NCBI GenBank assembly: GCA_937625935.1
Contig: OW569382.1
Location: 372,001-436,000 of the forward strand
Direction of reading: 5' to 3'
DNA: 64,000 nucleotides
From: Tetramitus jugosus
Taxonomy: Eukaryota > Heterolobosea > Eutetramitea > Acrasida > Vahlkampfiidae
The stretch's first letter is position 1. Every line of letters begins with the position of its first letter. A model generated the notes under the pieces. It was not told where the DNA came from. It worked only from the letters and a program-made list of their open reading frames with translations, and ran no database searches. Below are positions 780 through 61,795 of the stretch, piece after piece. The position numbers and the translations under genes were made by a program.

Positions 780-876
780 TTATTGATTGTGCTTTGCTTG
801 CTGCAAAAGAGAAACTCTTTTGACCGCGAAAATGTTTTTGGGCGCCAAACAGAATTACTCCGTATGGTGCATACAA

Positions 877-3495: not shown

Positions 3496-3535
<40 letters not shown>

Positions 3536-4041: not shown

Positions 4042-4584
4042 GTTTCGTTTGCTTGTTTGATGATTGTAGAGGGTCGCTTGATGATGGACAAAAATTTCTT
4101 TATCGGCGCTTGGGGGTGAATTGCTATTTCGGCGATTTTGCTTTCGGACCAAAATTCACGAGTTTGGCGGATGGGATTTGTAGGTCTCTACAACTGGTGA
4201 GCAGTTCATGTCAATCCATACCAGGAAAAGGTGTCGGTCTGGCTGTCCAATTCGTTTTTTCACACATCTTTCTATTCTGAAAAATTTCAGAAAGAATTGT
4301 CCACAGAATTTTTTTGGCAGAAAGGAAATGCGCCCACATTGCGGCCACTTTCCGCCTGAGCGATAGAATACAAAGATACCGCATCCAAGGCAGACTGCAA
4401 GTCTGAATCTCCACTGCATCTCTCTTCCTGACGGTGCAGCTTCCAGGGAATAAAACTTGCATTTTTCACACCAAAGAAAACCAACCACACCAAAGCTTAA
4501 AACAACAACCAAAGCAACATCAAAAAGCAAAAGCAAGCTTCTTCTTTGTCAAAAGATCACACTTTCACACAACAACAACAAAAA

Positions 4585-35934: not shown

Positions 35935-36517
35935 AATACAACCAGTGGTTGAGCTGTTTAATCGTTGTCTCTTCTCGTTACACAAGGTAACTAGTATGAT
36001 TGTGACGCAGAATGCAGTCGCTGTTGAATTATTTTTGTTACCAGCTATCTTGTGAAGAGGCGATGCATCACCTCAACACATCTCCTCTTGGTGTTGTCCA
36101 CAAACTGCTTAGCTTTCATCTTGGCGACCTCTTTCTTGATTCCACTCTTCTTGAGCCCTTTGGCCACTTGTTTAACCGCAAATAGTCATTGATTGTTTTT
36201 CTCTGCTCGTTCATTATTCGTTTTCCATTGTACCACTGCTGGTTATCAAACCAAATGTCGACATATTGTGACTTGTGCAGATCCAGAGCTTAACTTTGTT
36301 ACCACCTCCGTTGAGAGCAATCCTGGCCATTCTGGATATCGGACAATTAATAAGACAGTGAATGACCGTCTCTTGTTCGAAATTGCACTTGGGACTCGTC
36401 GTGTCCATATCTTCCACATTGTTAGAGGTGCTTTATCACCACCTTGTTTGTGGCTGCGATATGGCCAGGTTACAGCTCAAAATCGGAAGGAGGACGAAAA
36501 TGTGTTTTTAAACATTG
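35935..36517 (-). mobile_element. Decayed LINE 3' fragment (oldest in tRNA-Glu stack)
   Basis: A 5'-truncated, heavily mutated non-LTR retrotransposon end. On the minus strand the last coding block (about 36180-36045) encodes Lys-rich residues ending in MHRLFTR and a stop, matching in position and character the C termini of the better-preserved copies. A frame at 36417-36214 retains the Cys/His knuckle remnant CNFEQETVIHCLINCP. The 3' signature is present: CAAC-N5-GTTG at 35939-35951 and an imperfect hairpin (7 of 8 pairs) at 36057-36074. Its 5' side abuts the target sequence TCAAAGTTTAA at 36518. The reading frame is broken in several places. Confidence 0.75.
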
Positions 36518-36528
36518 TCAAAGTTTAA
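36518..36528. repeat. Target-site copy TCAAAGTTTAA (1 of 3, tRNA-Glu stack)
   Basis: Identical to 37330-37340 and 42304-42314. It lies between two successive LINE insertions and reads as a shared target-site duplication. Confidence 0.85.
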
Positions 36529-37329
36529 GTTTTTTTGTTTTTTTTAATACAACACGTAGTTGCTCACTTTATTGTGCATCATTCTTTCAAATAGTTTCTC
36601 TTATTCTCACTGTGCCGCTCGAAGAGCGGCACTTATCTTTCCTTTCAGTGACGCTCGGAGATTGAGACACAGCGTATCCATGTCCACTACTCCATAGAGA
36701 TGTTGGACAACGGCCTTTGTGTGTATTGTGTGACTTTTCACCTGAGCCACAAACCATTCCAGTGCACGATCGACCCTGAAAGGGCATCTCATAAATTTAA
36801 AATCTACAGCACCTCCTAAACACTTAGACTGTATCCACCAAACCTTCTCCTCTTTCACCCTATCTCTATGTCGTCGCAAGAAGACTCGCCACAGCTGTTC
36901 CTTCTCTACGACCTCAAAACTATCATTGTACATTAACCTTGGGGTAGTGTCGGTTGAATGCTCGTGATTTCCATTGCGCTGTAGCATTTCAAGATCACTT
37001 GTCAAGTACTTGTATCTGCGAGAACTAATCCCAAAATTTCCATGTCTTTTGACCAATTCGCTATGCCTGATCCACTTTCCACCCACTGTCAATTGACTCC
37101 TCAGACCTATTCCCACCTTGAACAACCTTTTGATGATGTCATTTGGCTGAGAGAGTGCCAGATTGCAACTCAGACAGTTAACTTCATTCCCACAAGAAAT
37201 AGTGAGGTGGTTGGTGTGCATACGGACAGCAGACCACTTAAGATAGCTATGTGCGACCAGCTCAATCCTGTTGTTGGATTGGAATACATTCTCTACCTGG
37301 AATGTTTGTAGATGCCTGCTGATAGAGTG
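36529..37329 (-). mobile_element. 5'-truncated LINE copy (middle of tRNA-Glu stack)
   Basis: An approximately 0.8-kb 3' fragment of a LINE in minus orientation, flanked on both sides by TCAAAGTTTAA. A poly(T) tract (the element's poly(A)) starts right after the left target copy. A 204-residue frame at 37221-36607 matches the LINE C-terminal region: RCPFRVDRALEWFVAQVKSH..HTKAVVQHLYG corresponds to KCPFGLERKEMWFYHQVRSG..HTRTGIRMLYN in the large copy. The zinc-knuckle part has been lost. The 3' signature is CAAC-ACGTA-GTTG at 36550-36562 and a perfect 9-bp GC-rich hairpin with loop GAA at 36612-36632, next to the stop codon. Confidence 0.85.
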
Positions 37330-37345
37330 TCAAAGTTTAATTTAT
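37330..37345. repeat. Target-site copy TCAAAGTTTAATTTAT (2 of 3, tRNA-Glu stack)
   Basis: A 16-bp sequence identical to 42304-42319; together they form the duplication around the near-full-length LINE. The first 11 bases also match 36518-36528. Confidence 0.9.
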
Positions 37346-37423
37346 TTATTTTTTTTTTCCATACAACGTTTGTTGCCACTTTATTCTATACACTACTGTG
37401 AGTCATGATTTCGCTCGGCACCG

Positions 37424-40400
37424 TTAGGTGACGAGCAGTGTTTCACTCCTCTGCGCGACAGAGTTAATATATATCTTGTATAGTGTCTTGGTGCACGACC
37501 TCTTGACTGAGTCAATGACCCTCCTTATCTTTTTCTCTGCTTTACTTCTCTTCTTGCCGGAGAGCTTCATTTCGTCCAGGAGCACCTCCTTGAAGTCTCC
37601 TTCCTGACCCATCAGTCCCTGCAGCGTACCTTCAGGTGTTCTCTTGACATTTCGTGGTTGTATCTTTCCACTTACATACAAAACATCCTCGAACCATATA
37701 GGGACCTTGATAGAGCCTGGCAGACTCAACTTGCCCAGTTTCTCCTTCAGCTCTTCAACCAACTTGCTTCTTGCTTCCCTTGCAGGTTCGCACTCCACTA
37801 GCAGATGCACTATGGTTTCTGGAGCTTTGCAACAGTGTGTGCAAGTGACATCTATCAGTGGATTATACAGCATTCGAATACCAGTTCTTGTATGGAGAGT
37901 TCCACTCCTCACCTGATGATAGAACCACATTTCCTTTCTTTCGAGACCAAATGGGCACTTGAGAAAGTTATTCCACTCCTTGTCTTGCTGCAATGCAGCT
38001 TCCAACCACCATTCCGCGCGCTTTGAGATAATTTCACTCCTTATTGTTGAGAAATGATCAGTCAACTCCTTCCTGATGTCATTCCCAACAATCTCCCTAT
38101 CGCTGACAGTCACTAAGACCTTTTGCTGCACGACTCTTTGAGCAATCCACTTTTCATCGCATGGTTTACCGAGCAGTTCCATATAGGCACGAATTCTCAT
38201 GTACTTTTTTGTGCCAATACCAACCATCTTAAACTTTGACTTCGCTTCTTTGTAGGGTATTGTCATGATACCATCCTCATCAAAAAGCTGATGGTTCTTA
38301 AAAATCCCACTACCCCGGAGTAGCCTTGCATCGCCGGTGGGAAGGCACCAACCAACGCTGCACCTCTCGCATTCGTGACAATCATCGGTCGTGACTGTTA
38401 TACCAGAGCAATGGAGTAGTTTGGCGCACCAAACAAGATATGTGTGCTTCGCCTCACGGAGGCGGATATTGGATTTGAAGATGCTCGTTCGTATGAGCGT
38501 TTGTGATTGCTTGACATCATCAAGCGTATCCAATAGTAGCTTCCGTGCTTCAGTATCTCTCTTACCCGTCAGCATTCCCGCAATGAATGCCGTGACTTTT
38601 GAGGTTAGACTTTCCTTGAAATTGTTCAAACCAATTCCTCCCTGATCTCTCACCACTGCTAACAACTCGGAAGGGAACCTCTTAAGAGCAGCCGAACCAT
38701 GTTTGACGGCCTTTCGGCCGATCCCTTCGATCTCATTGAGCCATTTCTTTGGCCAGTGAGTAAACTCCGATGCGTAAAGGAACACTGGGTGCACACATGT
38801 GTTAACGATACGTGCTGTTTGAGCAGGGCTCAACTTGAGGAACTTGGCACGGTTCAGAATTTTCAGTACCTTCAATTTTGCTTGTTTCTTTTGCATTTCG
38901 GTATCACCATTGAGATTGGTGAACAAACCGAGAGCCCTGAAAACAGATTCTTTGTTCTTAGCTATCACTAGTTTGTCTGATACCCTAATCTCAGGCATTC
39001 CACCCTCCGCTTTTCTAACAAAGAACTCCAATTTGTCAGGATGCATAGTCAGACCCAAGCACTTGAGCACCTTGTGCATAGCATTCGCTGTATCCTCTAT
39101 GTCTTTAAGGCTTCCACTGAACAAGTTGCAGTCATCAACATATGCAACATTCCATATCCTTTGGGACATGGTCTGATCTTGCTCTCATTCCAGCATAGAG
39201 AAGTGCCAGTTGGTGCACTATCACATAAGATGTTGGTGACAAGGAGTCACCTTGTCTGGTGCCCCTGTCTATGTAGATTCTCCGAGACCTCACTTGAGTT
39301 CCAATCGTTGCCTCGTTTGCCTCGAGCATATTCTGAACGAGAGAGATGATACCCTCTGGGAAATTGAAGAAGCGATATGCAGCTGTGATCGCGTTATGTG
39401 GCACACTGTCGAATGCTTTGGATATGTCAGTAAGGAGAACGAAAAGCTGTTCATCCTTCCTGTTGGCGTGGTCGATAACGCCTCTGATGATAGATAGTTT
39501 CTCACGTATGTCCCTCAATTTGCGACCACCACCCTGTGTGTTACTGAACACACCTGCTTTTTCGGCGGCCATTGCCACCCTATGATTGAGCAATCTTGTG
39601 AAGACCTTCGACAGACTGCTCAATAGACAAATAGGTCTGTAGTTGGCAATGATCGAAGGACAACCCTTCTTGTAGGCAGGGACGAGTATGCACTTCTTCC
39701 AACTGCTTGGGAAAACACCAGTTTGCACTATGTTGTTAAAAAGTGTCACCAGAGCCTCCGCAAAATCGTATCCATAGTCCCTTTGCTTCGTCTTTTGGAG
39801 CTTCAGCATCTCGTTGCACACTCTATCAACACCCGGTGCTTTACCGTTCCTTAGCCATTTCACTGACTGTTGTATCTCTACTGCTGTGAACATTGGAAAC
39901 CACTGTTCCATGTTACTAGCATTGAAAGTCATTTCGCTCAGGAAATTCATGTCAGCAAACTCATGTTCGAACACCTCCTCGAAATACTTCGCTGCATGCT
40001 CGGCCACTTTCACCTGGTCAGTGACTATGGTGTCATGGAGCTTGAAACTTTTGAATCTTATCCTCATTGACCTTTTGCCGGTGGCAGCATTGAAGAAAAA
40101 CCGAGGATCCACAAACTCGGTGGTCCTAGCCTTGTATAGCCACTTTACAAATCTCTTGTTGGCTCTCCTAGCTCTTTCACCATGTATAAGCTTCTCCACT
40201 TTCGCCAGAGCAGTAAGGATTCCAAATTGACTGCTTTCTTCTCCGTACGCATGGCAAATTCTCACAACTTTGCTAGTCAACATCGACCCCTGTTTGGAGA
40301 CTTTCTCCACAAGAGCCTCTCTCTCTTTCATCCATCTTCTTACCCTTCTGTTGTCAATCCCTCTGGTCATCACTTTGTTCTCAGGGAAGACTTTTGCACC

Positions 40401-41276
40401 ATCCGTGATAGCACTAGTGATTTTCTCACACTGTTCATCAACCGAGAGATCCTCAAATTTGATCCTCTCGAGACTGTCAATTACAGACTGCGAGTAGGTA
40501 TTCCAGGACAGGTGACATCTCTTTGGGAACCTTGTCCTCGGCTCCTGCGGTATCTCAATACCATCCTTTACCCACTGGAGCTTCACCATAGTAGGGATAT
40601 GATCACTATACACACCATTCTTTGCATATGGGAGAACGTCCTTCACTACTTCAGAAGCAGATGGATTGACCCAAACAGAGTCTATCCTCGAGGAATATTG
40701 ATTCCTGAAAAAGGTATGAAAGTCCTCCTTGCTTGCAACCGAGTTGGCACTCATGAGCTGCAGCCCCTCAATCAGTGCTCTAAAGTGAGCACTGTTAGCA
40801 TCCAACTTTCTCGTGCTTCTATCAGTGGTCATCGTCACGGTGTTATGATCACCTCCAAGGATTAGCTTTCCCCTGTACGCTAACACTCTCAAAACTTCAT
40901 TTGTTGCCACATAATGATGCCCTCCGATTGCTTCTTTATGGAGGCCATAGTGGTTTACCAACTTCACACTCAGTTCACCACTTGCAACCTCGATCACTTG
41001 CACTCTATCATTGGAGAACAGCACCCTGTACTCTTGAACGCTAGTACGGCGTACTATTGCCATTACTCTATCTGTAACATCATTGCAGATCAGCATACAC
41101 CCCACCATCTCAAGCTGTCTGGAAAAAGAGGTTTTGAATCCCTCGTTCCTGCAACTTGCTTCCTGCAACATTAGAACATCAACTTCCGGGCTTGACTCTA
41201 AAAAGGCTACAACACCACTTCTTTTGTTTTTGAGTCCCCTGATGTTGTACCACACGACGTTTAAGGTCGTACTCAT
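37424..41276 (-). pseudogene. LINE ORF2: APE endonuclease-reverse transcriptase, one frameshift
   Basis: The enzymatic ORF. An apurinic-endonuclease-like domain fills the first 235 residues: WYNIRGL, LMLQEAS, GGDHNTV, SRIDSVWV and SDHIPTM carry the expected Asn, Glu, Asp/Asn, Asp and His. Reverse-transcriptase motifs follow: NGKAPGVDRVCNEML, CILVPAYKKG, NYRPICLLSSLSKVF, TDISKAFDSVPHNA and TRQGDSLSP. The frame ends at 39135, but the catalytic YVDDCNLF box is read in the +1 frame from 39169, so one base change in frame separates the halves. The second part (39169-37424) continues to a Cys-Cys-His-Cys knuckle (CTHC...HLLVEC). No RNase H domain was seen. The ORF start overlaps the previous stop in the tetranucleotide ATGA at 41276-41273. 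Confidence 0.9.
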
Positions 41277-41806
41277 TGTTGGAGCAGTTCACCCTCGTCA
41301 TTGTTCTCAACAATGGGTTGAGTCTTATTGACATACATTGTACCTCCAGGAGAGCCTGTTAGAACTACCTTGCTCTGAGTCTGAACATCCTCCAGCTCAT
41401 TTGCTACTCTTTTTGTCCCTCTTCTGCCACCGCTTCTTGCAGTATAGTCGGTCAGCTTAGTTTGACCTTTTTCCTTGCCCACAACAGTGCGCCTCCCCTT
41501 AGTTTGTGCTACTGGTGTACTCATCATTTGCTCGTCACTCTCTGAATTCAGAGCCTCGACATCACCCATTTCCGAAACTGGATCTGGAACCGATTTTTCT
41601 CCTCTATCAACGCCACTCAAAAGTTTGCTAACCCTCTGTCTCATTTTCATCATTTCGGCCTTAAGTGCACGAATTTCTTCAACACTTCTCGCATAGTGAT
41701 CCATGATATTGTTCAGTTCACTCTGTAGCTGATTCACATTTCTCTTCAATTGCTCGATAGGATCTTGAGTACGGTGAACGTACTTTCTCGTTGTTGTATT
41801 GTCCAT
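41273..41806 (-). CDS. LINE coiled-coil ORF (ORF1b)
   Basis: A 177-residue frame just upstream of ORF2. Residues about 15-65 show heptad-like leucines (IEQLKRNVNQLQSELNNIM, IRALKAEMMKMRQRVSKLL), expected for a trimerising or dimerising coiled coil as in LINE ORF1 proteins. The rest is polar with basic stretches (TKGRRTVVGKEKG, SGGRRGTKR). Its TGA stop overlaps the ORF2 ATG by ATGA, so ORF2 may be translated by termination-reinitiation. It begins 31 bp after the upstream ORF stop. Confidence 0.75.
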   Translation of the reverse strand: MDNTTTRKYVHRTQDPIEQLKRNVNQLQSELNNIMDHYARSVEEIRALKAEMMKMRQRVSKLLSGVDRGEKSVPDPVSEMGDVEALNSESDEQMMSTPVAQTKGRRTVVGKEKGQTKLTDYTARSGGRRGTKRVANELEDVQTQSKVVLTGSPGGTMYVNKTQPIVENNDEGELLQQ

Positions 41807-41837
41807 CGGAGTTATGCCAAGTAATACCTCAGCGAAG

Positions 41838-42281
41838 CTAGGTCGCCGAATTGCCTCTCAGTTCGACTCCGCATACATTGTCACGTCCAGCCCATTTTAT
41901 AATCTCCTCAACACTGGATTTACCGGCTCCCACCAGCACCACGTCATGCGTGGCCCTCATACGGCTGTTCGGAGCAGCTTGTGCACCGTTCAACATATTT
42001 CTGCAGTTGAACCATTCAATAAATTCCCACACTTTGTCATTTGTTGGGACTATCCAGGCTCTAAAATATTCACCCTTTCTGCTCACTTGCACTCTCTCCA
42101 CCCTTTCACTGCAACCATGTACAATTTTGTTGACCAAAGCTTCATTGGTAACATTGTTGCATTTGCCAGAAACAACAACCTCCTTTCTCTTGACTGCTGC
42201 ATCCTTGCTGATTTTTGTCCATAAAACAAATTCCTTTCTGCGTATAACTACCGCCTGTACTGACGGTCCTTGTGTAGACAT
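41838..42281 (-). CDS. LINE 5'-proximal ORF (ORF1a)
   Basis: A 147-residue frame whose ATG (42281) lies 22 bp inside the element's 5' end. It has alternating strands and helices (VQAVVIRRKEFVLWTKI, RVERVQVSRKGEYFRAWIV, KVWEFIEWF, THDVVLVGAG, DNVCGVELRG) suggestive of a small alpha/beta, possibly nucleic-acid-binding, fold. No metal-binding knuckle is visible. It could be a separate LINE protein, or the N-terminal part of ORF1 split from ORF1b by mutation; the 31-bp gap with a TAG stop allows either reading. Confidence 0.6.
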   Translation of the reverse strand: MSTQGPSVQAVVIRRKEFVLWTKISKDAAVKRKEVVVSGKCNNVTNEALVNKIVHGCSERVERVQVSRKGEYFRAWIVPTNDKVWEFIEWFNCRNMLNGAQAAPNSRMRATHDVVLVGAGKSSVEEIIKWAGRDNVCGVELRGNSAT

Positions 42282-42303
42282 GTGTTCGCGTTTTTTGCTT
42301 TTT

Positions 42304-42319
42304 TCAAAGTTTAATTTAT
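42304..42319. repeat. Target-site copy TCAAAGTTTAATTTAT (3 of 3, next to tRNA-Glu)
   Basis: Lies 28-44 bp upstream of the tRNA-Glu 5' end. It runs into TATATACTTT, a TATA-like element expected in the TFIIIB-binding region. Confidence 0.85.
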
Positions 42320-42347
42320 ATACTTTCGGAGATTTTTTAAAGCATAA

Positions 42348-42444
42348 TCCCATATAGTCTAGCTGGTTAGGATATCCGGCTTTCACTTCCAAGCTGAAAT
42401 GCAAAAGTCCCCGGAAGACCCGGGTTCGAGTCCCGGTATGGGAG
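42348..42444 (+). tRNA. tRNA-Glu(UUC) with a 24-nt intron
   Basis: Acceptor stem TCCCATA pairs with TATGGGA. D arm GTCT-AGCTGGTTA-GGAT, anticodon stem TCCGG/CCGGA with loop C-TTTCA-C (anticodon TTC at 42382-42384), and T arm CCGGG-TTCGAGT-CCCGG are all present. A 24-nt insertion (42386-42409) sits at the canonical intron site, one base 3' of the anticodon. A run of T (ATCTTTTTC) follows as a pol III terminator. The body closely resembles eukaryotic tRNA-Glu genes. Confidence 0.93.
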
Positions 42445-42835
42445 ATCTTTTTCTTGAACCGGCTGCTGTTTTGAATGGTTTCTCTCTGCGACCTCCTTCG
42501 TCATTCTATTCATTCGCTACTTGCTTCGTAGCTCGTTTCTACTCCCAACATACCAAGCATGTACCGTTGCACCATTGCAGTGTATTGCTCTTGATCTGTC
42601 CATCAGCATGCTTGAGCCACTTTCCTTCTTTAACCAACTGAGCCATCACACAAGTACCAATCAGAAATGCTTAACAGTCTCTTCGGTTGAGACAGAGTAC
42701 AACGAAGTCAGTTGTTCTACTTCCCATAGGAAATAGACAAGTAGTTGATCACATGTGGACTACTGCATTACAACTGTTACTAGATTCCTTCACCAATTGT
42801 GTTGAAGCACAGACATGTGTTCTGCTTTTTACTTT
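42445..42835. other. Spacer between tRNA-Glu and the tRNA-Ile LINE stack
   Basis: 391 bp without a supported gene. Bases 42811-42822 (AGACATGTGTTC) followed by a T-rich tract repeat the sequence at the 5' end of the large LINE (42277-42288), and they abut the target copy TTAGACTTATA at 42836. A decayed third LINE may therefore end here. On the minus strand near 42640-42625, GGCTCAGTTGGTTA resembles a tRNA A box, but no tRNA can be folded. Confidence 0.4.
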
Positions 42836-42846
42836 TTAGACTTATA
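42836..42846. repeat. Target-site copy TTAGACTTATA (1 of 3, tRNA-Ile stack)
   Basis: Identical to 47167-47177 and 47692-47702. Confidence 0.85.
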
Positions 42847-44207
42847 TTTTTTTTCCATACAACAGTTGTTGCCACTTTATTCAATACACTACTATGAGAC
42901 ATGTCGTCGCTCAGAACCGCAGGTTCTGAGCTATTGTGCAGATCTCTTCGCTAGCGAGTCTTTCCAGACTTTATACATTCGTTTGATGCAAGATCTTTTC
43001 ATTGCATTTACCAATCTTTTCACTTTTGTTTCCCGCTTCTTGCGGCTATATACTACTATTTCCTTCATCAGTACCTCCTTCTGGTCCTCCTCTTTACCCA
43101 TTAGTCCTGCCAGCAGCTCTTCCGATGTTCGACTGGGGTAGCATTTTGCCATCATCGTACACCGCATTGTCAAACCAGAGATTGAGCTTGGCTGGTCTCA
43201 TAAACTCCAGTTTGTTCAATGAAACCTTGAATTCTTCCACTAGTTCGCTTCTTGCTCTTTTGGCTTCTTCACACTCCACCAAGAGGTGTAGTATCGTCTC
43301 CGGTTCACTCTTGCAATGAGCACGCATGGTTTCCATCAGTGGTTCATACAGGTCTCGTACTACAGTCTTTGTGTGCAAGTCCGGTGATAAAACCACAACT
43401 CACCTCTTTCTAGACCGAAAGGGCACTTCAAAACCTCATTCCACTCCTTATCCTTCTGCAGGTCAGCTTCTAGCTTCCAGTTTCCATCTGATTCTTACTT
43501 GCGCGAAATATTCCATCAAACCTTCTCTTACATTGGGGTTACTGAGAACAATGCCATCTGCCGTCACTTCTACGGCATCTTTCATTGCTCTCTGCGTCCT
43601 CCATCTTTCGTCACATGGTTTTCCAAGGAGCTCCATGTAGGCCTTTATCCTAGAGTACCTTGCAGGACCGACTCCTTTCAGCTTGAACTTCTTCTTGGCC
43701 TCCTCCAGTTTAATGACCATTATTCCATCCTCATCGAACAGTTGTAAGTTTTTCGTGATTCCACTCTTCAAGAGCAGCTTGGCATCTCCTGAGGGGAGAT
43801 GCCAACCGATGCTGCACTTCTCGCATTCGTGACCACTCTTTTGGCTTACGATTACCTCCGCACTGTGGAGGAGTTTGGCGCACCATACCAAGTATGAATG
43901 CTTGGCCTCACGAAGACGATTGTTGGATTGGAAAATGCTCGACCGAATGAGCGTTTGTGTGTGCTTGACGTCATCAAGCGTATCCAACAGAAGTGTTCGT
44001 GCTTCAGTGTCTCTTTTTCCATGCAGCATCCCAGCGATGAACGCTGATATCTTGGACGTAAGACTCACTCTGAAATCATTGAGCCCTATTCCTCCTTTGT
44101 CCCTCTCTACTGATAGCAACATTGAGGGGAATCTCTTCATGGCATTTGATCCATGCTTCACTACCTTGCGACCAATACCTTCTATCTCGTTCATCCACTT
44201 CGTAGGC

Positions 44208-44217
44208 CAGTGGGCTT
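44208..44217. repeat. Target duplication CAGTGGGCTT (left) of nested element
   Basis: A 10-bp direct repeat with 47156-47165, flanking the nested element. The left copy is coding sequence of the interrupted LINE. Confidence 0.75.
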
Positions 44218-44862
44218 TTTTTTTTTAATACAACAAATGGTTGCGGAACTTTTATTTTTCTTTTACGTGAGAGCAGGCTTGCCTGCTCTCAATTGTCTAA
44301 CATGATGTGGTGCTTGCCCAGTGGAGTGGCAGGCCTACGCAACAGGATTCATTCTCTTCTTGGAATGTTGTTTTGATCCCTTCTTCAGGGATTCGTTGCG
44401 AGGGCCTCCACTACCATCTGGAGCACCACTGGTGAGGTCAGATGGCTCCGTAGTCCTAGCCAGTTGGTAGGACCTATGGAGAGCACCTGATTTGATACTG
44501 GCCAACCTGGCCGGGATCTTGTTGGCAGCAGTGTCACCAACGGTGACACGTGCTGATCGCTTCTTGTGTTCGTTGAGTTGGGGACTCTGTAACTCACAGT
44601 CGGGATTACTGAGATCCAACTCAACTGGATCTTCTTCGGTGGTTGTGCTTCTTGCACGGTCCACCATGATTGCTCGGGCAGCAATCTCTTTCTTGGCTTT
44701 CTTGAACACCTCTGAGGTGTTCAATACTAGCTCGAGGATTGCTCTGTTACGAGCATCCTCATCAATGGTGTTGTTGGTTGGCTCGGAGTCGTAGGTTCGA
44801 ATTCGGAGATTCGCTCCGGCGTCCTTGGGCGGAGTTATTTGCAAATAAATTCGAGTGTATTT

Positions 44863-44883
44863 GTGCCGAGCCCTAACCAAGAG
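44863..44883. repeat. hAT terminal sequence with inverted 8-bp flank
   Basis: GTGCCGAGCCCTA (44863-44875) followed by ACCAAGAG. At the other end of the element (47050-47070) the same 13 bases, in the same orientation, are followed by CTCTTGGT, the reverse complement of ACCAAGAG. Normal hAT ends would be inverted relative to each other. Confidence 0.75.
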
Positions 44884-44913
44884 GAACTGCACCAAGCAGC
44901 AAGGAGGTCATCA

Positions 44914-46924
44914 TCACTGGAAAGTGTGAGGGGGAGCCAAGAAGATTGGCTTGGATTTTGGTGATTTGCTCACCAGGGTCCAAGTCATCAAGAAGGGCCC
45001 CAAGAGGTTTGTTGCGTGGGTAACTCTTGCTACTAAAGACATAACCGGATAAAATTGTTGATTATCCCTCCACCATTCCAATGAAAATTCCAAATTTGTT
45101 TTTTCTTTGCTGGATCCAGTTTTGTAATATCTGTCAACGTCGGACGCTGCCTTGTTTGTCTCAATGCTTCGAAGGGTATATTGATTCAAACTATAATCCG
45201 AACTCGGTGGTGAATCATCTATACCTTCCTCTTCTAAATCTTCAACATTATATTCCAATTTGATTCTTTCGATGACTTCTCTTGTCAAAAATAATCTATC
45301 ATTTTGATTTAAATGTTTGTCTATCCATATAGACTTTGTTCTAGGATCTAATGTAGCTGTTATATAGTAAACAAGACTACTATCCATCAGAGAATAGTAT
45401 TTATCATACTTCTTCTTACCTAACTTCACTGCATTCACCAAATCATCGGTCAAATTTGCAAATTTCTTCCTTTTGCCGATCACATCATTTAACAAGTCAT
45501 GAAGAGCATAATATACTGCTAGTGAATTAACAATCTGTGGTTTCTGAGTTGATAAAAAGTTTGTAAAGTCGTCAAACGTTTTCAGAAGCACCCTCAAGTT
45601 TGTTAGCTGTATCCAGTCATCACTTGATAATAAAAGGTCAGGGACCAAATCCGTTGCATATCGATTCAACTCACTAGGGAAACGAAATACATCGTCAATC
45701 ATTTTGAATGTAGAATTCCACCGAGTATCGACATCATAGTCAATGAGCTTTTTTTGTTGATCAGATGTAACCAATTCCAACCACTTGTTTTTTCTTTGCG
45801 TACTTCCTCTGATATACAATGCCATTGTTCTTATTTTCATGATAGCACTCAGAGAACCAACTTTCTCATTTTTCATCAACTTTTTGATTGCATCCTCAGA
45901 GTCTTTCCGAGCTCCAGCTTTGATGACAGTCATTATCGCTTTTACAACCAAATTGATTATGTGTGCAAGACAACGAATGAGACTTTCAGTTCCTTGATAT
46001 CAGATTGTTCGATCGTGTCTACCCCTCAATGCTGTTTTCAGGGAAGAAACAAGGGAACCCGAAAGTGTGTCATTGTTTTTTGCATTGTCTGATGTGATGG
46101 TTAGTAGTTTGGTTAGTAAATCTAATTCATTAAGCGTTTCAATGACATGTTCCGCAATATTGGATCCTGTATGGCAGCCTTGGATGGATTTAAAATCAAG
46201 TACGCGCTGATAAAGTTCAAATTCAGGGCCAATCCATGAACCAATGATACCAATAAATGAATTGTTGTGTGGGCTAGTCCAAGCATCAACGGAAATCGCA
46301 ATTGAATTGCATGTAGAAAGTAGAAAGTGTTTCAACTGTTCTCTTGAGTTCTTGAACTCTGATTCAACTAACGTTTTCAATTTCTTGGCCGATATCAGCA
46401 TGTTCAACTCCATTGTTCGAAAATAAATGTTTTAGATATGGACTTTCGGTAAAACAGAATGGAAGATTCTCCATAACAATTAAGCGTACAATATCTAGAC
46501 AGAACTGTTTTTTCTTGTCCATAATTAACTCAGGTGTTGAAATACTGCTTTCGTTGACCATTTTATCTCGATGGTCTCTTTCAAGGTGCCTGTGCATATT
46601 GCTGGTTGAGTTGTGACGGCAACTCTCCAGTACAGACCAAGTATCACAGTAATTGCATTTGATTATTTGGTCATTTTCTTTTCCACCATCTCTATTTATC
46701 GGTGATACCGAAAAATGCTTCCAAACCGAACTTCTTCTTTGATTCTTGTTTGTGTTTCTTGACTTGTTTTTCTTTGCTGCTGCGTTGGTTAGTTCCTGCA
46801 ATAACTCTTGATCAATATGTGCGATATCTTCGTATTCTTGAATATCATCATCCTCTTCGGGGTCCATTTGACTATAGTCATGCTGAATGCGGCGTCTCTT
46901 GTGGCTATTTTCCTCTTGATTCAT
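44914..46924 (-). pseudogene. hAT-family transposase, broken
   Basis: A degenerate hAT transposase. The N terminus (ATG 46924) leads to a BED zinc finger: WKHFSVSP..., CNYCDTWS, then HRHLERDH. A frameshift near 46413-46390 joins it to the RNase H-like part (SIAISVDAWTSPHNNSFIGIIGSWI, LLTITSDNAKNND). An in-frame TGA at 46002-46000 precedes IRCLAHIINLVVKAIM, and the frame continues with DYDVDTRWNSTFKMI and PRTKSIWI. The C-terminal dimerisation domain starts EWWRDNQQFYPVMSLVAR but is replaced after about 45026 by unrelated residues, so the last third of that domain is missing. Three independent defects make it non-functional. Confidence 0.85.
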
Positions 46925-47049
46925 TTTTGTTATTTGCGAATCACTCGAGTTTTTTCGAATTTGAATTTGTTTTTGGGTGTGTGAAAATTTCAATTTGAAC
47001 CTGTTTTTGAATTTGACTGATTCGTTTATTCGCGAGTTTACTCGAACTT

Positions 47050-47070
47050 GTGCCGAGCCCTACTCTTGGT
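47050..47070. repeat. hAT terminal sequence, outer end, with 8-bp flank CTCTTGGT
   Basis: GTGCCGAGCCCTA marks the 5' end of the hAT element read on the minus strand (TAGGGCTCGGCAC). The adjacent CTCTTGGT is the 8-bp target sequence typical in length for hAT elements. Confidence 0.7.
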
Positions 47071-47165
47071 GCTGTGGTCCACATATCATAGCGTGGATTC
47101 TCATACTCACGAACAACAGGGGGTGTGTGTTCGTTTTTTTATCGGCGTTTTTGGTCAGTGGGCTT

Positions 47166-47179
47166 CTTAGACTTATAGT
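47166..47179. repeat. Target-site copy CTTAGACTTATAGT (2 of 3, tRNA-Ile stack)
   Basis: 14 bp identical to 47691-47704. It flanks the LINE fragment between them and is also the 5' flank of the older LINE. Confidence 0.9.
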
Positions 47180-47690
47180 TTTTTTTCCATACAACAATTG
47201 TTGCCTCTTTATTCAATACACTACTGTGAGTCATGATTCCGCTCAGCACCGTCAGGTGCTGAGCAGTGCTTCACTCCTCTTCACGACAGAATTAATATAT
47301 ACCTTGTGTAGTGCCTTGACACAGGCCCTCTTCATGGAATCCACCATACATCTTATCACCTTCTCTGTCTCCCTTTGTTTCCTGTCGGAGAGCACCATTT
47401 CATCCAATAGTTCTTTCCTAAAGTCCCCCTCTTTTCCCATTAGTCCCTCTAACAGTCCTTCAGAGGATCGCTTGATATTTCGTGGTTGTATCTTGCCCTT
47501 TTCATATATCGTATCGTCAAACCAGAGCACAATTTTGGCTGAGTCCGGTAGCATCAGCCTATCCAATTTAGCTTTCACCTCTTCTACGAGTTTCTTTCTG
47601 GCTGTAAGGGCAGCGTCGCACTCTACCAACAGATGTAAAATGCTCTCCGGTGCAGCGCCACAATTAAGACGCTTTGCATCTAAACTGGAT
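47180..47690 (-). mobile_element. 5'-truncated LINE copy next to tRNA-Ile
   Basis: An approximately 0.5-kb LINE 3' fragment, minus strand, flanked by the 14-bp duplication CTTAGACTTATAGT. An uninterrupted frame of about 150 codons ending at 47252 matches the LINE C terminus: NCGAAPESILHLLVECDAALTARKKLVEE, DKL-like IVLWFDDTIYEKGKIQPRNIKR, and KALHKVYINSVVKRSE. Its lack of frameshifts suggests it is the youngest member of this stack. The 3' signature is CAAC-AATT-GTTG (47192-47203) and a perfect 10-bp hairpin, GCTCAGCACC/GGTGCTGAGC with loop GTCA (47241-47264), overlapping the stop codon. Confidence 0.88.
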
Positions 47691-47704
47691 CTTAGACTTA
47701 TAGT
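47691..47704. repeat. Target-site copy CTTAGACTTATAGT (3 of 3, next to tRNA-Ile)
   Basis: Lies 28-41 bp upstream of the tRNA-Ile 5' end and contains the TATA-like CTTATAG. Confidence 0.9.
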
Positions 47705-47731
47705 GTAACTGAGTAGAAAGTTAATATTCAA

Positions 47732-47804
47732 GGTCGTTTAGCTCAGTCGGTAGAGCGTTGGTCTAATAAGCCATTGGTCGCAGGTTCGATCCCTGCAACG
47801 ACCA
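47732..47804 (+). tRNA. tRNA-Ile(AAU)
   Basis: 73 nt without intron. Acceptor stem GGTCGTT/AACGACC, D arm A-box TAGCTCAGTCGGTAGAGC, anticodon loop CTAATAA (anticodon AAT, read as IAU), T arm GCAGG-TTCGATC-CCTGC. The outermost anticodon-stem pair is a T-T mismatch; the others pair. ACATTTTC follows as a pol III terminator. Confidence 0.93.
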
Positions 47805-57719: not shown

Positions 57720-60700
57720 TTACAGGAACAAAGGAGAAAGTTGTTGTACCGAGACTTGACAGTGCTTTGTGGTTGCTTTGTCGAGAGTCGCCTCACCACC
57801 AAGAAGTTCCAAAAACTTGCAGAAGCTTCGTTCTGTGACTCTCTGCCGAGTTCGATCTTCAATCTGTTTCGACTTGGCATAAGCAATCTCCAGTATGGGT
57901 GGAGGTATTCCTGCGAGCTTGGCCACATTGATTCCATACGATTTCTCAGCCATTCCAGGCAATAATTTGTAGAGGAATTCGATAGATTTCTCACCGAGAA
58001 GGATGCTATAATCTGAATCATCTGAGTTATCGACCTTTGGTGCAGCATAGGACATGTGATAGTTGCGGACACAGGAGAATGTGTTCTCAAGTTGTGTAAT
58101 CAAGGGATAATGTGTCACGAAAAGAGTAAAGCAACGCATTTCAATTAACTTTGTAAGAATGGCATGAGCAATACTATAACCATCGTACGTACTTGTTCCT
58201 CTACCAATCTCATCCAATACGACCAATGACTTGTAAGTTGCATGATGCAGCATCTCACTTGCCTCAGCTAGTTCGACGAAAAATGTTGATTGACCTCGAG
58301 CAATATTGTCGGAGGCACCCATTCTTGTATAAATGCTATCGAAAATACTTAGGCGACAACTTTCGGCTGGAACATAGCAACCAATTTGAGCCATGAGAAC
58401 AATAAGAGATACTTGCCTCAAGTAGCTCGACTTACCACCCATATTTAAGCCTGTGCACACGTAGATTCTCGTATCTGCATCCATCTTTGTAGAGTTAGGT
58501 ACAAACTCTCTCTCCGTCAAAATTGTTTCCATGACAGGATGACGTCCATTAATAATTTCGAGAACACGGGGCTGGTCATCTGGAACAAACTCTGGCTTGA
58601 CGTATCCTTGACCGATAGATAACTCGGCCAGTGAGTTCAAGCAATCTAATATTGCAAATTGGTCAATGCACTTTTTCAAAGAGCTATACTTGGAGGAAAA
58701 TTGCTTCAGTAAGTCCACCCAAGCTTTGTCTGACTCGATTCCCAGTTTATCTTCATTCAGATCAATAATCTTAATCTGGTCGATAATTGGTTGAGTATGA
58801 TATCGCACCAAGGTTTTCGTTTGCCCCAACTTTATCCACTCTTTTGGTGCATCCTTGGATGCTCCTATCGGCAGTTCAATGACATACTTGAAATTCTTGT
58901 AAGTCTTGAAACTCAAGCTAGGTTTCTTGAATAACTTTCGCGCACCTTCTAATTCCCTGTCCAAATTCTTCTTTGCCTCTTTGATGAGATTGTAGTACGA
59001 AGCAATATGTCCACATATTGAGCCAGTAACTAGATTTGTGTCATTCGAGATACTTTGTTTGATAAACAAAGCTGACTTAATTCCTTCCTTTGCTGCTTGA
59101 TGAGAGAAAGAGTCTAAGTATGCTTGGATGAAGGATACCAAGTCATTTGGTATATTTTCAAATATCTGATACAAAAGTCCATCTTTTACAAGTTCAGCTT
59201 GCCACAAAGACTTTTCTGGTATATTCTCGAATATTCGCTGGAATGCACCAAGTGCTCTCAAAAATTCTTGAGGTGAAATCTTATTGTAAAAGATTTTCAT
59301 CAATGTCTTCTCCAAGTCTGGCAAGCTCTTCATGATTTCTATCATTTTGTCCAAGCAGGCTGAATGATTGTGTATTTCATCAATAGCATTCAGTCTCTCT
59401 TGAATTCTGTTCATATCTGTCAATGGATGGGTGATCCATTGTTTCAATAATCTTGCGCCAAATTTAGTTCTTGTTCTATCCATGATGTAGTACAAAGAGC
59501 CATTCTGACCATTATCAGTACTGTTCTGTAATATTTCCAAGTTGTGCAGTGTGATACCATTTAGAGACATTGTTCCGATTGTATTAAAGGAGTGATACTT
59601 CATTCGAGGAAGGCGCAACAAATGGTCCAATTTGAAATCCTTCAAATAGATGATGAGTCTGTAGAAGCATAGTTGAACGGAAAATGGAAGTGACATAATT
59701 TTCTCCAACTGTTCCTCTTCAGATGATTTTACGACCTTTGGTACACCGTCCTCCTCGTCTTCCTCTTCAGATACAAAGAATTCTTCAAAATATTTGGTCA
59801 AAAACCGTTGATTCTCCTCATCTAGATCATGCGAATATTTCTCAATTCTAGGGTGTGAATTGTTTCTACATAACGATTGTTGCACTATTCTCTCCGTTTC
59901 ACGGGACACATCTTCTGATAACAAAACTTCGATAGGCTGGATTTTACACAACCTTGTATCAAGCTCCTGTCTCATCGCGTGATCTACAAATGGCTCTTCA
60001 TAAATGACTTGACCAGTTGTCACATCAACACATACCATGGAGATCATCACTTTTTGAGATGAATCATCTTCATCTTCGAATGATTCTTCGTTTATAACTA
60101 ACAAATGAGAGAATATTCCTTCATCCAAATCACCCAAGTCCTCTCCAATTTGTGTGCTTGCTGAATACATGCTAGTCAGATCACGAGTAAATGGTTGAGC
60201 AGACTTTTTTCCCTTTTCGTCATCCATGGCCTTCAATGCTGCCGTTTCCGTTTGCTTTACAACTCCACACTTAAAACCAGCCAGAATCATCTTTCTTAAG
60301 TGAAAGGATAACCGATGCGTGGGCAGACAGACGCATTGGAAATTACTCTTTTGAAACTGGATCAACCCATTTGTTTTGCTTGCATTCAGTGCATCTTCTC
60401 CAAAAAGATAAAATTTGTATCCAACTTCCACAAACATAAGTACTCCAGGATACTCCTTCTTCAACTTCAAAACTTGTTGTTCAAGTGGAGTGTGTTTGAC
60501 TACGCTTGATTTTGCTTTGGTCTTCGTGCTTGCCTTCTTCTTAGTCTTCTTTTTTGCACCATCCGACTCTTCATCGTCATCACCTCCATCTCCTGCTTCT
60601 GCTCTTTGCTCTGCGTTCAAAAGAGATTCAGACAACAACTTTTCAACAAATAGCTTATGACGTTCTTCATCTGCTACTTCTCCTTGCTTTTCTGAGCTGT

Positions 60701-61448
60701 ACATGTATACGACAGGATCAAATGCAGGAGCACTACTCGTACTTGTCTTCGATGATGATGTCTTCTTCACTGGAGTGGATACTGAAGATTTCTTCTTTGT
60801 ATTTTTGCTCTTTGTAAGTGAGATTTTCTTGCCCTTTTTCTTCTTTAACGAAGCAACAACTTCTCCATCTGATGAATCATCCATCGGCATTCCATGATCC
60901 AACTCTTCCTCATATGCACCATCATCCACATCTTCATCTGCATCATCTCTTGCAGCATCAGGAACATAATCATCATCGTCATTATCACTGCTATTTTTCT
61001 TTCTTTTATGTTTCGCTGGTTTTTCATCTCTTGTTTTGCGTACCCAGACCTTCTTTTTCGAAGAAGAAGCCTTCTTCTCTGTTTCCTCTGCTTCTTCTTC
61101 TGCATTGTCATCATTATCGCTATTATCTCGACCTGCAGCTAATACTCTACTTTTGGATCTTCGAGTGGTGACTCTACGTCTCTTGGGTGCTCTTTGCTCT
61201 TCTTCTTCTTCATCAGAATCAGACTCATCACTGTTCTTATCGTCGACAGTTGATTTTTGTTGAGTTGCAATTCTTTGTCTGGCAAGAACAGAAGTTCTTC
61301 TGCTTCTTCTCGTCGTCGTAGTTGTGGTCGTCTTGTCTTCACTGACTACTTGTTCTTCTTCTTGTTGTTGTTCGATGGTCCCTTCATGGTTCTCATCACT
61401 GCTCGATTCGACGGTGACTCGGGTGCGTTTTCTGACTACTCTTGGCAT
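57720..61448 (-). CDS. MSH3: DNA mismatch repair protein MSH3
   Basis: MutS homologue of 1242 residues. Upstream of the ATG at 61448 the frame has no other ATG. Residues 1-330 are acidic and basic low complexity. The mismatch-binding domain matches MSH3 rather than MSH6: HTPLEQQVLKLKKEYPGVLMFVEVGYKFYLFGEDA, PTHRLSFHLRKMILAGFK and GVVKQTETAALKA, lacking the MSH6 FxE motif. The lever and clamp follow, then the ATPase: Walker A GLNMGGKSS (residues 1000-1008), DSIYTRMGASDNI, STFFVELAEASEML, LVVLDEIGRGTSTYDG and FVTHYPLI. In Walker A, Leu1001 replaces the near-invariant proline of GPNMGGKS. It would pair with MSH2 to repair insertion-deletion loops. No intron is seen. Confidence 0.93.
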   Translation of the reverse strand: MPRVVRKRTRVTVESSSDENHEGTIEQQQEEEQVVSEDKTTTTTTTRRSRRTSVLARQRIATQQKSTVDDKNSDESDSDEEEEEQRAPKRRRVTTRRSKSRVLAAGRDNSDNDDNAEEEAEETEKKASSSKKKVWVRKTRDEKPAKHKRKKNSSDNDDDDYVPDAARDDADEDVDDGAYEEELDHGMPMDDSSDGEVVASLKKKKGKKISLTKSKNTKKKSSVSTPVKKTSSSKTSTSSAPAFDPVVYMYSSEKQGEVADEERHKLFVEKLLSESLLNAEQRAEAGDGGDDDEESDGAKKKTKKKASTKTKAKSSVVKHTPLEQQVLKLKKEYPGVLMFVEVGYKFYLFGEDALNASKTNGLIQFQKSNFQCVCLPTHRLSFHLRKMILAGFKCGVVKQTETAALKAMDDEKGKKSAQPFTRDLTSMYSASTQIGEDLGDLDEGIFSHLLVINEESFEDEDDSSQKVMISMVCVDVTTGQVIYEEPFVDHAMRQELDTRLCKIQPIEVLLSEDVSRETERIVQQSLCRNNSHPRIEKYSHDLDEENQRFLTKYFEEFFVSEEEDEEDGVPKVVKSSEEEQLEKIMSLPFSVQLCFYRLIIYLKDFKLDHLLRLPRMKYHSFNTIGTMSLNGITLHNLEILQNSTDNGQNGSLYYIMDRTRTKFGARLLKQWITHPLTDMNRIQERLNAIDEIHNHSACLDKMIEIMKSLPDLEKTLMKIFYNKISPQEFLRALGAFQRIFENIPEKSLWQAELVKDGLLYQIFENIPNDLVSFIQAYLDSFSHQAAKEGIKSALFIKQSISNDTNLVTGSICGHIASYYNLIKEAKKNLDRELEGARKLFKKPSLSFKTYKNFKYVIELPIGASKDAPKEWIKLGQTKTLVRYHTQPIIDQIKIIDLNEDKLGIESDKAWVDLLKQFSSKYSSLKKCIDQFAILDCLNSLAELSIGQGYVKPEFVPDDQPRVLEIINGRHPVMETILTEREFVPNSTKMDADTRIYVCTGLNMGGKSSYLRQVSLIVLMAQIGCYVPAESCRLSIFDSIYTRMGASDNIARGQSTFFVELAEASEMLHHATYKSLVVLDEIGRGTSTYDGYSIAHAILTKLIEMRCFTLFVTHYPLITQLENTFSCVRNYHMSYAAPKVDNSDDSDYSILLGEKSIEFLYKLLPGMAEKSYGINVAKLAGIPPPILEIAYAKSKQIEDRTRQRVTERSFCKFLELLGGEATLDKATTKHCQVSVQQLSPLFL

Positions 61449-61795
61449 CTTGCACTGGGTCAATAAATAAAGAAGTAAATGCAAGCTTTTGTTTGAAGAC
61501 AGTTCACCAGTATCGACCGGGCGAAGTTTAAAGTGCAGTTCGAGTGAATTGTGGATTAGCGGAAAAACAGAATTTGTCCGAGTTATCTATTACCCGCCAA
61601 ATAACCCCGAAAGATTCGACCCTTCTGTTCTCCGACGCCAGCAGTCTTCTGTCAGTACAAAAACGAACCCTTCCACCCCCAACCAACAAACAAAAACAAC
61701 AAGTGCCACACTCTCGATAACTACCCCGAATATCTTTGCTGCCAATTATTGAATAAGATCTGATTGGCTCTTTATTTCACATTCACACTTGACAA
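61449..61795. other. Divergent promoter region, MSH3 and CaaX protein
   Basis: 347 bp between start codons. An 87-codon plus-strand frame at 61489-61749 lacks an ATG and reads Pro/Ser/Thr-rich, ending in a stop before the next gene, so it is not called. No TATA consensus stands out. Confidence 0.4.

Follow-up and report, generated by a model that had tools for sequence, protein, structure and literature searches.

In the genome of the heterolobosean Tetramitus jugosus, LINEs and two kinds of short element that encode only an ORF1 lie for the most part a few tens of bases upstream of tRNA and 5S genes, on the opposite strand and within insertion windows that differ between two reverse transcriptase (RT) clades. 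We hold it very probable that, taken as a whole, this pattern reflects protein-guided TPRT at Pol III genes, carried out in clade-specific registers by the LINEs and by ORF1-only followers that borrow their ORF2.

Two such loci are found in the window (the whole stretch of 64,000 nucleotides that was analysed, contig OW569382.1, positions 372,001 to 436,000). The intron-bearing tRNA-Glu(TTC) gene (42348..42444, plus strand; Rfam 55.9 bits, reported as tRNA-??? in the first ARAGORN run) is preceded by three minus-strand copies. The oldest, A0 (about 35936..36515), is a degraded 3' remnant of a TA-type LINE, recognised by ORF2 C-terminal similarity in several frames; its tail, read by eye, is GGTTGTATTTTAAAA, and no target duplication was resolved for it. 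Copy A (about 36529..37327), a 5'-truncated LINE fragment with the same kind of similarity, ends in the TA tail GTTGTATTA and is associated with a 13 bp target duplication (TGTCAAAGTTTAA), reckoned to lie at -46..-34 of tRNA-Glu with copy B removed. Copy B itself (about 37346..42303) is a near-full-length GG-tail LINE with the tail GTTGTATGG, an RT-bearing ORF2 and an ORF1, both of them frame-broken. Its ORF2 comprises an N-terminal part with an APE-like endonuclease and the RT (39135..41276, minus strand; RVT_1 8.1e-17, Exo_endo_phos_2 0.0014 and thus below cut-off) and a C-terminal part with the RT end and the C terminus (37424..39169, minus strand; RVT_1 end 0.00036), while its ORF1 is divided into an N-terminal part (41838..42281, minus strand; 66% identity to the open ORF1 of a relative, L025) and, in a frame broken relative to it, a coiled-coil-like C-terminal part (41273..41806, minus strand). 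The target duplication of B, TCAAAGTTTAATTTAT, at 37330..37345 (far copy) and 42304..42319 (gene-side copy, both minus strand), occupies -44..-29 of tRNA-Glu.

Three further minus-strand insertions precede the tRNA-Ile(AAT) gene (47732..47804, plus strand; Rfam 70 bits). The first of them, C (about 42847..44217; identified by ORF2 similarity and tail), is a 5'-truncated GG-tail LINE with the tail GTTGTATGG and the far duplication TTAGACTTATA, seen by eye. Element E (44218..47155), split by a hAT transposon, is an ORF1-only element of the E2 type, matching the E2 protein at 96% over 153 residues, with the TA tail GTTGTATTA. The original prediction had listed it as a nested LINE-like element; the element is indeed there, but chance insertion into a LINE does not describe it, as its target duplication (CAGTGGGCTT; gene-side copy 47156..47165, minus strand) spanned the boundary between copy C and the target and is reckoned to have lain at -51..-42 of tRNA-Ile with copy D removed, so that E too fits tRNA-aimed insertion. 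The youngest insertion, D (about 47179..47689), is a 5'-truncated GG-tail LINE with the target duplication TCTTAGACTTATAG (far copy 47165..47178, gene-side copy 47690..47703, both minus strand), at -42..-29 of tRNA-Ile. All six LINE-type pieces are on the minus strand and both tRNA genes on the plus strand, as had been described, and the duplication windows noted earlier were reproduced within about one base. An MSH3 protein is also encoded in the window; its best matches are metagenomic, and among the 120 of 193 matches listed none is named Naegleria.

Genome-wide, 190 matches were grouped into 128 clusters, and at 93 of the 106 clusters examined a tRNA or 5S gene lies at the 5' side on the opposite strand. 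The remaining 13 comprise two with a clear relic, three with a possible one, four that meet another copy at the end of the sequence examined, and four with no Pol III gene, two of these less than 4 kb from a contig start. The possible tRNA relics (L012, L017 and L042) are all weak: two were matched by shuffles (18/100 and 4/100), and that of L042 consists of 14 bases without an Rfam match. At L012:4738 an Rfam IMPDH match (26.5 bits against a gathering value of 95.4) was taken as chance. A weak ORF2 piece (C33:135974), located past a tRNA gene targeted by its neighbour, has no Pol III gene at its own 5' side. The targets span all 20 tRNA isotypes and 32 anticodons, as well as 5S genes, and the distance and orientation test proposed with the original prediction gave the predicted outcome in the 106 clusters examined, with a fixed divergent orientation and sharp windows. 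The term 'tRNA-targeting' was correct as to tRNA genes and too narrow as a restriction to them: 5S genes carry the same kind of insertion, so the target is better described as the Pol III gene.

The same arrangement, which the genome-wide counts show not to be due to chance, emerged when the count was centred on genes. Among 127 Pol III genes picked by RNA similarity alone, a copy within 1.5 kb was upstream and opposite at 28, downstream and opposite at one, and on the same strand at none, either upstream or downstream; within 100 bp the upstream-opposite arrangement was found at 14 genes and the other three at none. In a second test, for which B-box positions were used for tRNA genes (RF00005 scoring covered 63 of 1593 candidates), 402 places were considered and the predicted arrangement was sought within 250 bp: it was present for 11/40 E1, 17/40 E2, 5/67 ORF2 matches and 3/43 3'-end matches, the other three arrangements combined amounting to 2. 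No gathering-level Rfam match to U6, 7SL, RNase P or MRP was obtained in 39 different loci.

The proposed assignment to APE-type LINEs held. The ORF2 of L015 combines RVT_1 (1.3e-24) with an above-cut-off Exo_endo_phos match (Pfam, 27.3 bits against 24.5), and that of L025 has RVT_1 at 2.7e-27 with endonuclease and zf-RVT matches below their cut-offs. Besides an RT and an APE-like endonuclease in ORF2, the family displays poly(A) ends (54 tails, poly(A) being required by the search pattern), variable target duplications (30, of 10-19 bp) and frequent 5' truncation (lengths from 195 to 4972 among the copies used for duplications). In a Pfam scan at E<=1 of two long ORF2 proteins, the incomplete one of which has 988 aa, no RNase H was detected.

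Target duplications could be placed for 30 insertions, in three cases after removing later insertions. At tRNA genes the near and far edges lie at 27-32 and 42-44 bp for GG-tail elements (n = 13) and at 34-44 and 46-57 bp for TA/TT-tail elements (n = 12; Mann-Whitney 3.8e-7), which gives median windows of -29..-43 and -40..-54 before the mature tRNA, about one helical turn apart; copy A of the window falls between them. At 5S genes the corresponding edges are 24-25 and 37-39 bp (GG, n = 2) and 34-37 and 49-51 bp (TA, n = 3), both windows being 4-5 bp closer than at tRNA genes (5S n = 5). The tail classes coincide with two RT clades (support 100/100) in a tree of 24 rows, from which five of the original 29 had been dropped for similarity more than 300 nt from the tail. 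With those rows kept, the tails need four changes instead of one, a mixing that we attribute to their similarity being drawn so far from the tail. The occupation of two adjacent windows by two RT clades is new beyond the earlier observation.

The two kinds of short element, E1 and E2, have no coding region besides ORF1 and are present in at least 40 copies each. E1 carries the GG tail and E2 the TA tail, and each uses the window of its tail class, with median distances to the tRNA of 45 bp (E1, n = 11) and 57 bp (E2, n = 7; p = 0.005); the exceptions are one E2 (C14, Asp) at 47 bp, an E1 value, and one E1 (C42, Thr) at 58 bp. In the ORF1 tree (22 rows) both fall on the non-GG side (100/100), and their pairing is moderate (87/87). 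The two ORF1s share 49% over 351 residues, some LINE ORF1 pieces are as near to E2 as E1 is (48-53% over 83-148 residues), and neither is a close copy of any LINE ORF1 compared.

We reason that insertion would be guided not by DNA sequence but by an assembly common to tRNA and 5S genes near the start site, most likely TFIIIB. The endonuclease would nick the coding strand of the gene first, at the gene-side edge of the future duplication, and the poly(A) tail would prime there; the second nick would mostly fall 13-16 bp farther out, an order adopted from general knowledge of TPRT, and the element would be left on the opposite strand with its head facing the gene. Relative to the mature tRNA, docking would occur at about -29..-43 for the GG-tail clade and about -40..-54 for the TA/TT-tail clade, roughly one helical turn from each other. 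E1 and E2, with only an ORF1-like protein of their own, may borrow the ORF2 of the tail-matched clade and would consequently land in its window, and reuse of one site would build up stacks.

Other routes to this pattern were weighed. APE nucleases favour A/T-rich sites and many upstream target stretches are A+T-rich, yet an endonuclease that reads a DNA motif located by chance before Pol III genes is most improbable, as no column exceeds about 1 bit at the nick among hand-picked sites (11 GG sites in 12 rows, one site being used twice, and 8 TA sites): the position is constant and the sequence is not. We give even less credence to random insertion followed by selection, copies persisting solely where genes are absent, as in the stretches before tRNA genes, which have been considered safe places in the compact genomes of dictyostelids (PMC5006619); selection would not fix edges within a few bp, nor give windows that differ by RT clade, and only one gene has a copy within 1.5 kb in any of the three other arrangements. 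Co-copying of tRNA and LINE, as a segmental duplication or as one composite repeat, is practically discounted: the duplication string shared within stacks is explained by reuse of the same site, and the 20 isotypes and 5S genes, the LINE clades, the target duplications and the flanks all differ, which also disposes of the single segmental duplication against which the original prediction had been set. All three of these readings were rejected.

The nature of the docking partner and of the part that reads it leaves more room. Internal promoters differ between tRNA and 5S genes, and the offsets to the gene start are nevertheless kept at both, with a shift of 4-5 bp (5S n = 5), which fits a factor bound at the start site, TFIIIC being needed only for its loading. 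Docking on TFIIIC or on the internal promoter in place of TFIIIB is accordingly unlikely, even if B-box mutation abolishes TRE5-A targeting in Dictyostelium (PMC5911963; PMC5391098). Less remote, though still doubtful, is that ORF1 and not the tail/ORF2 sets the window, the E1 and E2 ORF1s having altered docking independently; the TRE5-A ORF1 protein binds TBP, Brf1 and Bdp1 (PMC5911963) and half of the residues differ between the E1 and E2 ORF1s, but the E1 ORF1 belongs to the non-GG side and E1 is found in the GG window. We give about even weight to the reading in which two sister LINE clades have divided a single Pol III initiation complex between two docking registers, one turn of the DNA apart and read from the tail/ORF2 partnership and not from ORF1. 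Part of it is a natural swap experiment, in which E1 (non-GG-side ORF1, GG tail, GG window) is set against E2 (TA tail, outer window).

These elements share both their way of life and their geometry with TRE5 of Dictyostelium. No sequence relation emerged from a profile search for TRE relatives, in which 7,999 candidates were scored and none of the seven matches was named Dictyostelium. TRE5 elements are reported to insert upstream of tRNA genes in opposite transcriptional orientation and carry an ORF1 and an ORF2 with APE, RT and zinc finger; TRE5-A lies before a 5S gene at 35-42 bp, against 47+/-3 bp at tRNA genes, and TRE5-A.2 is an ORF2-less derivative with the same targeting as TRE5-A (PMC5911963; PMC5391098). 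The LINEs described here likewise lie upstream of tRNA genes in opposite orientation and, at a shorter distance, before 5S genes, and they have ORF2-less partners with the same targeting (E1/E2), whose mobilisation in trans is putative. They differ in that only the TA clade (34-57 bp; GG clade, 27-44 bp) overlaps the TRE5 window of 44-54 bp (47+/-3), in that two clades use two adjacent windows, the inner one nearer the gene than that of TRE5, and in that, in contrast to the TRE5 partners, E1 and E2 lack a close counterpart among the LINE ORF1s compared. The dictyostelid non-LTR elements Dp_NLTR-A and Pp_NLTR-B are also reported upstream of tRNA genes, NLTR-B at a TRE5-like distance (PMC5006619) and NLTR-A at 2-6 bp. 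Both carry an RNase H domain after the RT, which the Pfam scan of two ORF2 proteins did not detect in the present elements. Ty3 and Ty1 of yeast are described as using the Pol III machinery to insert in front of the genes that it transcribes (PMC5911963). These are, however, LTR retrotransposons with an integrase, and their insertion chemistry is unlike that of the LINEs. HAL1 of mammals, an ORF1-only LINE derivative that borrows an RT, resembles E1 and E2 in coding capacity and, unlike them, is not known to be aimed at Pol III genes.

To our knowledge, no LINE group directed at Pol III genes has been studied as well as the TRE5 elements of dictyostelids, and a further set in another protist provides comparative data on the aiming part, with two registers, 5S genes and all 20 isotypes as targets, and two tail-matched ORF1-only parasites. 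It renders testable whether the docking site is chosen by the tail/ORF2 or by ORF1. The copies may be viewed as a footprint of the position of the initiation complex, and from them tRNA leaders in this organism are predicted to be about 4-5 nt long; its genome would offer a natural test of how mobile elements find a safe landing place. If the register reading is true, selfish elements would here partition a resource that consists of one single protein-DNA complex.

ARAGORN and Rfam identify two plus-strand tRNA genes in the window (C39:372001-436000 of assembly G000, 26.35 Mb in 56 contigs, C1 to C56): tRNA-Glu(TTC), which has an intron (42348-42444), and tRNA-Ile(AAT) (47732-47804). LINE-type pieces are stacked upstream of each, namely A0 (35936-36515), A (36529-37327) and the nearly full-length B (37346-42303) before tRNA-Glu, and C (42847-44217), E (44218-47155) and D (47179-47689) before tRNA-Ile. 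All six are on the minus strand, in agreement with the original prediction of minus-strand LINEs facing plus-strand tRNAs, and the insertion windows it had placed 28-44 bp (Glu) and 28-41 bp (Ile) upstream hold well against the target duplications of B (TCAAAGTTTAATTTAT, -44 to -29 of tRNA-Glu) and D (TCTTAGACTTATAG, -42 to -29 of tRNA-Ile). Copy B matches reverse transcriptase (RVT_1, 8.1e-17) and, weakly, an APE-like endonuclease, its ORF1 and ORF2 each being spread over two frames. The supposed nested LINE-like element (E) is indeed nested, but it is no plain LINE: it proved to be an ORF1-only element (of type E2) split by a hAT transposon. Its duplication (CAGTGGGCTT) is reckoned to have lain at -51 to -42 before the later insertion of D, so E, too, is consistent with insertion directed at the tRNA gene. 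The hAT transposon (44801-47090; BED zinc finger at 8.2e-07, plus weaker hAT pieces) has an end, TGCCGAGCCCTA, which as read by eye adjoins ACCAAGAG at one side and, at the other, its reverse complement CTCTTGGT; since these flanks stand in opposite sense and ~170 bp of adjoining E2 sequence are inverted, an inversion appears to have taken place after the insertion. Elsewhere in the window, a frame of 1288 codons (57720-61586, minus strand) matches MSH3 (best matches 67% and 49%), with no Naegleria-named protein among the 120 MSH3 matches listed.

Element copies were collected genome-wide by ORF2 protein (at least 67 matches, 62 of 141 candidates scored; all 67 used), by 3'-end DNA (at least 43, 40 of 83 scored; all 43 used) and by the ORF1-only elements E1 (at least 54, 40 of 163 scored; best 40 of 54 used) and E2 (at least 60, 40 of 176 scored; best 40 of 60 used). 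The 190 matches were grouped into 128 clusters of one strand each (divided wherever a Pol III gene intervenes), of which 106 were judged using ARAGORN, Rfam, the listed tRNA and 5S genes, and places matching the B-box pattern GGTTCGANNCC (412, against 92 for the reversed pattern). Of the 106, 93 have an opposite-strand Pol III gene on their 5' side; in the 77 where a gene was called, 20 of 20 amino-acid isotypes and 32 anticodons are represented, with 5S genes targeted as well. The predicted tRNA association, in distance and orientation, is borne out in most of the clusters judged across the genome. The 77 gene calls fall within 2.6 kb (a limit wide enough for the ORF1 region plus a single stacked copy), while 14 clusters have a B-box alone (within 110 bp), one has it inside the cluster (C33:136379) and one past a stacked copy, at C16:341503 (in a form found at 159 places, against 54 for the reversed control). 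A weak piece at C33:135974, beyond the tRNA of C33:136379, has no Pol III gene of its own.

Clear Pol III relics, with scores equalled by none of 100 shuffles, were found at the 5' side of two clusters: a 5S gene without its middle (L024) and a 3' part resembling tRNA-Ser (L033). Possible relics in the correct register occur at three more, L012 (score reached by 18 of 100 shuffles), L017 (4 of 100) and L042 (14 bases identical with the beginning of tRNA-Trp, lying ~44 bp from the tip of the LINE, with no Rfam match). Four clusters run into a further family copy (L074, L092, L094, L098), and at another four (C1:2854, C45:3011, C7:193597, C33:389751) neither a Pol III gene nor, in shuffle-controlled tests, a relic was found. 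As a control, five E1 copies without a listed nearby gene on C1-C10:300 kb (where B-box places were listed in full) all proved to have a tRNA (Ser, Leu, Tyr, Thr, Ser). The LINE beside the possible decayed tRNA gene of L012 (2111-4738; TA tail, 17-bp duplication) lies at the 3' end of a gene coding for a mitochondrial-carrier-like protein (by eye). At C12:46035-61296 (read in parts), ~15 kb of same-strand family elements lie upstream of a single tRNA-Phe gene.

The converse count started from 127 Pol III genes picked solely on RNA similarity (53 of 63, 27 of 29 and 47 of 47 listed genes; two fragments and 10 genes on C54 and C56, which we take to be organellar, were left out). Within 100 bp, elements were upstream-opposite, upstream-same, downstream-opposite and downstream-same in 14, 0, 0 and 0 cases, within 1.5 kb in 28, 0, 1 and 0, and within 5 kb in 31, 0, 5 and 1; at least 22% of the genes (28/127) are therefore occupied. 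Taken together, the elements almost certainly target Pol III genes. The 5S genes are dispersed (at least 47 on 24 contigs, 47 of 772 candidates scored), with listed pairs ~1.1-1.2 kb apart on C1 and C10, and ~1.4 kb apart on C9. Five tRNAs have the same positions on C54 and C56, which probably represent a single organelle genome assembled twice.

The loci read contain 54 three-prime ends in which GTTGTAT is followed by GG or TA/TT and then poly(A) (one GA stands in place of GG, and one AA was assigned to the TA class), as found by a pattern that demanded the GTAT core and poly(A), and that tails of other form would escape. For 30 insertions the duplication has a defined position relative to an intact gene, 22 of them among the 54 ends and 8 from a separate reading; the remaining 32 ends comprise 16 without a repeat in that scan (some of them among the 8) and 16 left out as short, stacked or gene-less, of the left-out ends C5:151756 (GG, 11 bp, -28 to -38) and C10:263536 (GG, string identical to that of its neighbour) agreeing with the window rule. 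At tRNA genes the GG class has its near edge at 27-32 and far edge at 42-44 (n=13), against 34-44 and 46-57 for TA/TT (n=12), with no overlap (Mann-Whitney, 3.8e-7) and medians offset by 11 bp, about one DNA turn. No clear motif is apparent at the nick (11 GG and 8 TA sites). The classes correspond to two clades: of 35 ends with an ORF2 match upstream, 29 had at least 110 residues, and the tree of the ORF2 C-terminal part (24 rows) splits GG (14) from TA/TT (10) with support 100/100. Five rows were excluded, the similar stretch being >300 nt away from the tail and so belonging to a neighbour or to a shifted frame; if they are kept, the tails require 4 changes. One LINE copy (L025:2952-7837) has ORF1 open over 345 codons and ORF2 over 1283, and several further stop-free ORF2 matches belong to frames open over 1280-1318 codons; judging from these frames, the family may still be active.

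E1 (1.3 kb, ORF of 388 aa, GG tail) and E2 (1.4 kb, ORF of 414 aa, TA tail), in neither of which an RT was found, have at least 40 copies each, mostly full length and 92-100% identical to the query copy, which points to recent spread. The two proteins share 49% identity, and in a tree of the ORF1 N-terminal part (22 rows: E1, E2 and 20 LINE copies) both stand opposite five GG-like LINE ORF1s (100/100) and group together with moderate support (87/87), although some LINE ORF1 pieces are equally near E2 (48-53% over 83-148 residues); the non-GG rows include two, L080 and L082, from copies whose TA tail was read. Median distances are 45 bp for E1 (n=11) against 57 bp for E2 (n=7) to the tRNA (p=0.005; copies whose match begins no more than 16 nt into the element) and 96 bp (n=10) against 106.5 bp (n=14) to the B-box (p=0.004), with one E2 at 47 bp and one E1 at 58 bp as exceptions. 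Thus, E1 occupies the GG window with a GG tail despite an ORF1 of the non-GG kind, and the insertion window follows the tail; that the tail or ORF2 sets the register is an even call. At L020 (C7:594245-596456), an E2 was apparently inserted in the 5' tip of an older E1 before tRNA-Ala, which puts it in its own outer window.

According to PMC5391098, the Dictyostelium element TRE5-A inserts 47+/-3 bp from tRNA and 35-42 bp from 5S genes, and has an ORF2-less partner (TRE5-A.2). The upstream site, the opposite strand, the use of 5S genes and the ORF2-less partner amount to the same way of life; since the insertion window differs and any kinship would be no more than putative, assignment to TRE5 is not justified. 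No description of such elements was found in the titles and abstract beginnings of open-licence literature on retrotransposons, LINEs and tRNA in Naegleria and Heterolobosea, or on Pol III/tRNA targeting, and passages of the N. lovaniensis paper tabulate 190 LINE entries but do not mention tRNA genes close to them; novelty in print, judged within open-licence literature, is not proven.

Position, orientation, duplications, poly(A), 5' truncation and the link between clade and window are established. From target-primed reverse transcription in general, the first nick would be made in the coding strand, at the edge nearest the gene. The internal promoters of tRNA and 5S genes differ, and TFIIIB at the start is common to both. 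Because of this shared factor, and because the TRE5-A ORF1 protein binds subunits of TFIIIB (PMC5911963), the insertion machinery would, by analogy, dock on TFIIIB, which we consider a rather likely partner. At 5S genes both windows are 4-5 bp closer (GG, n=2; TA, n=3), a shift of the same sign as in TRE5-A. Provided that transcription of 5S genes starts at their 5' end and that tRNA 5' ends are processed, insertion would be anchored at the start site, and a tRNA leader of 4-5 nt is predicted.
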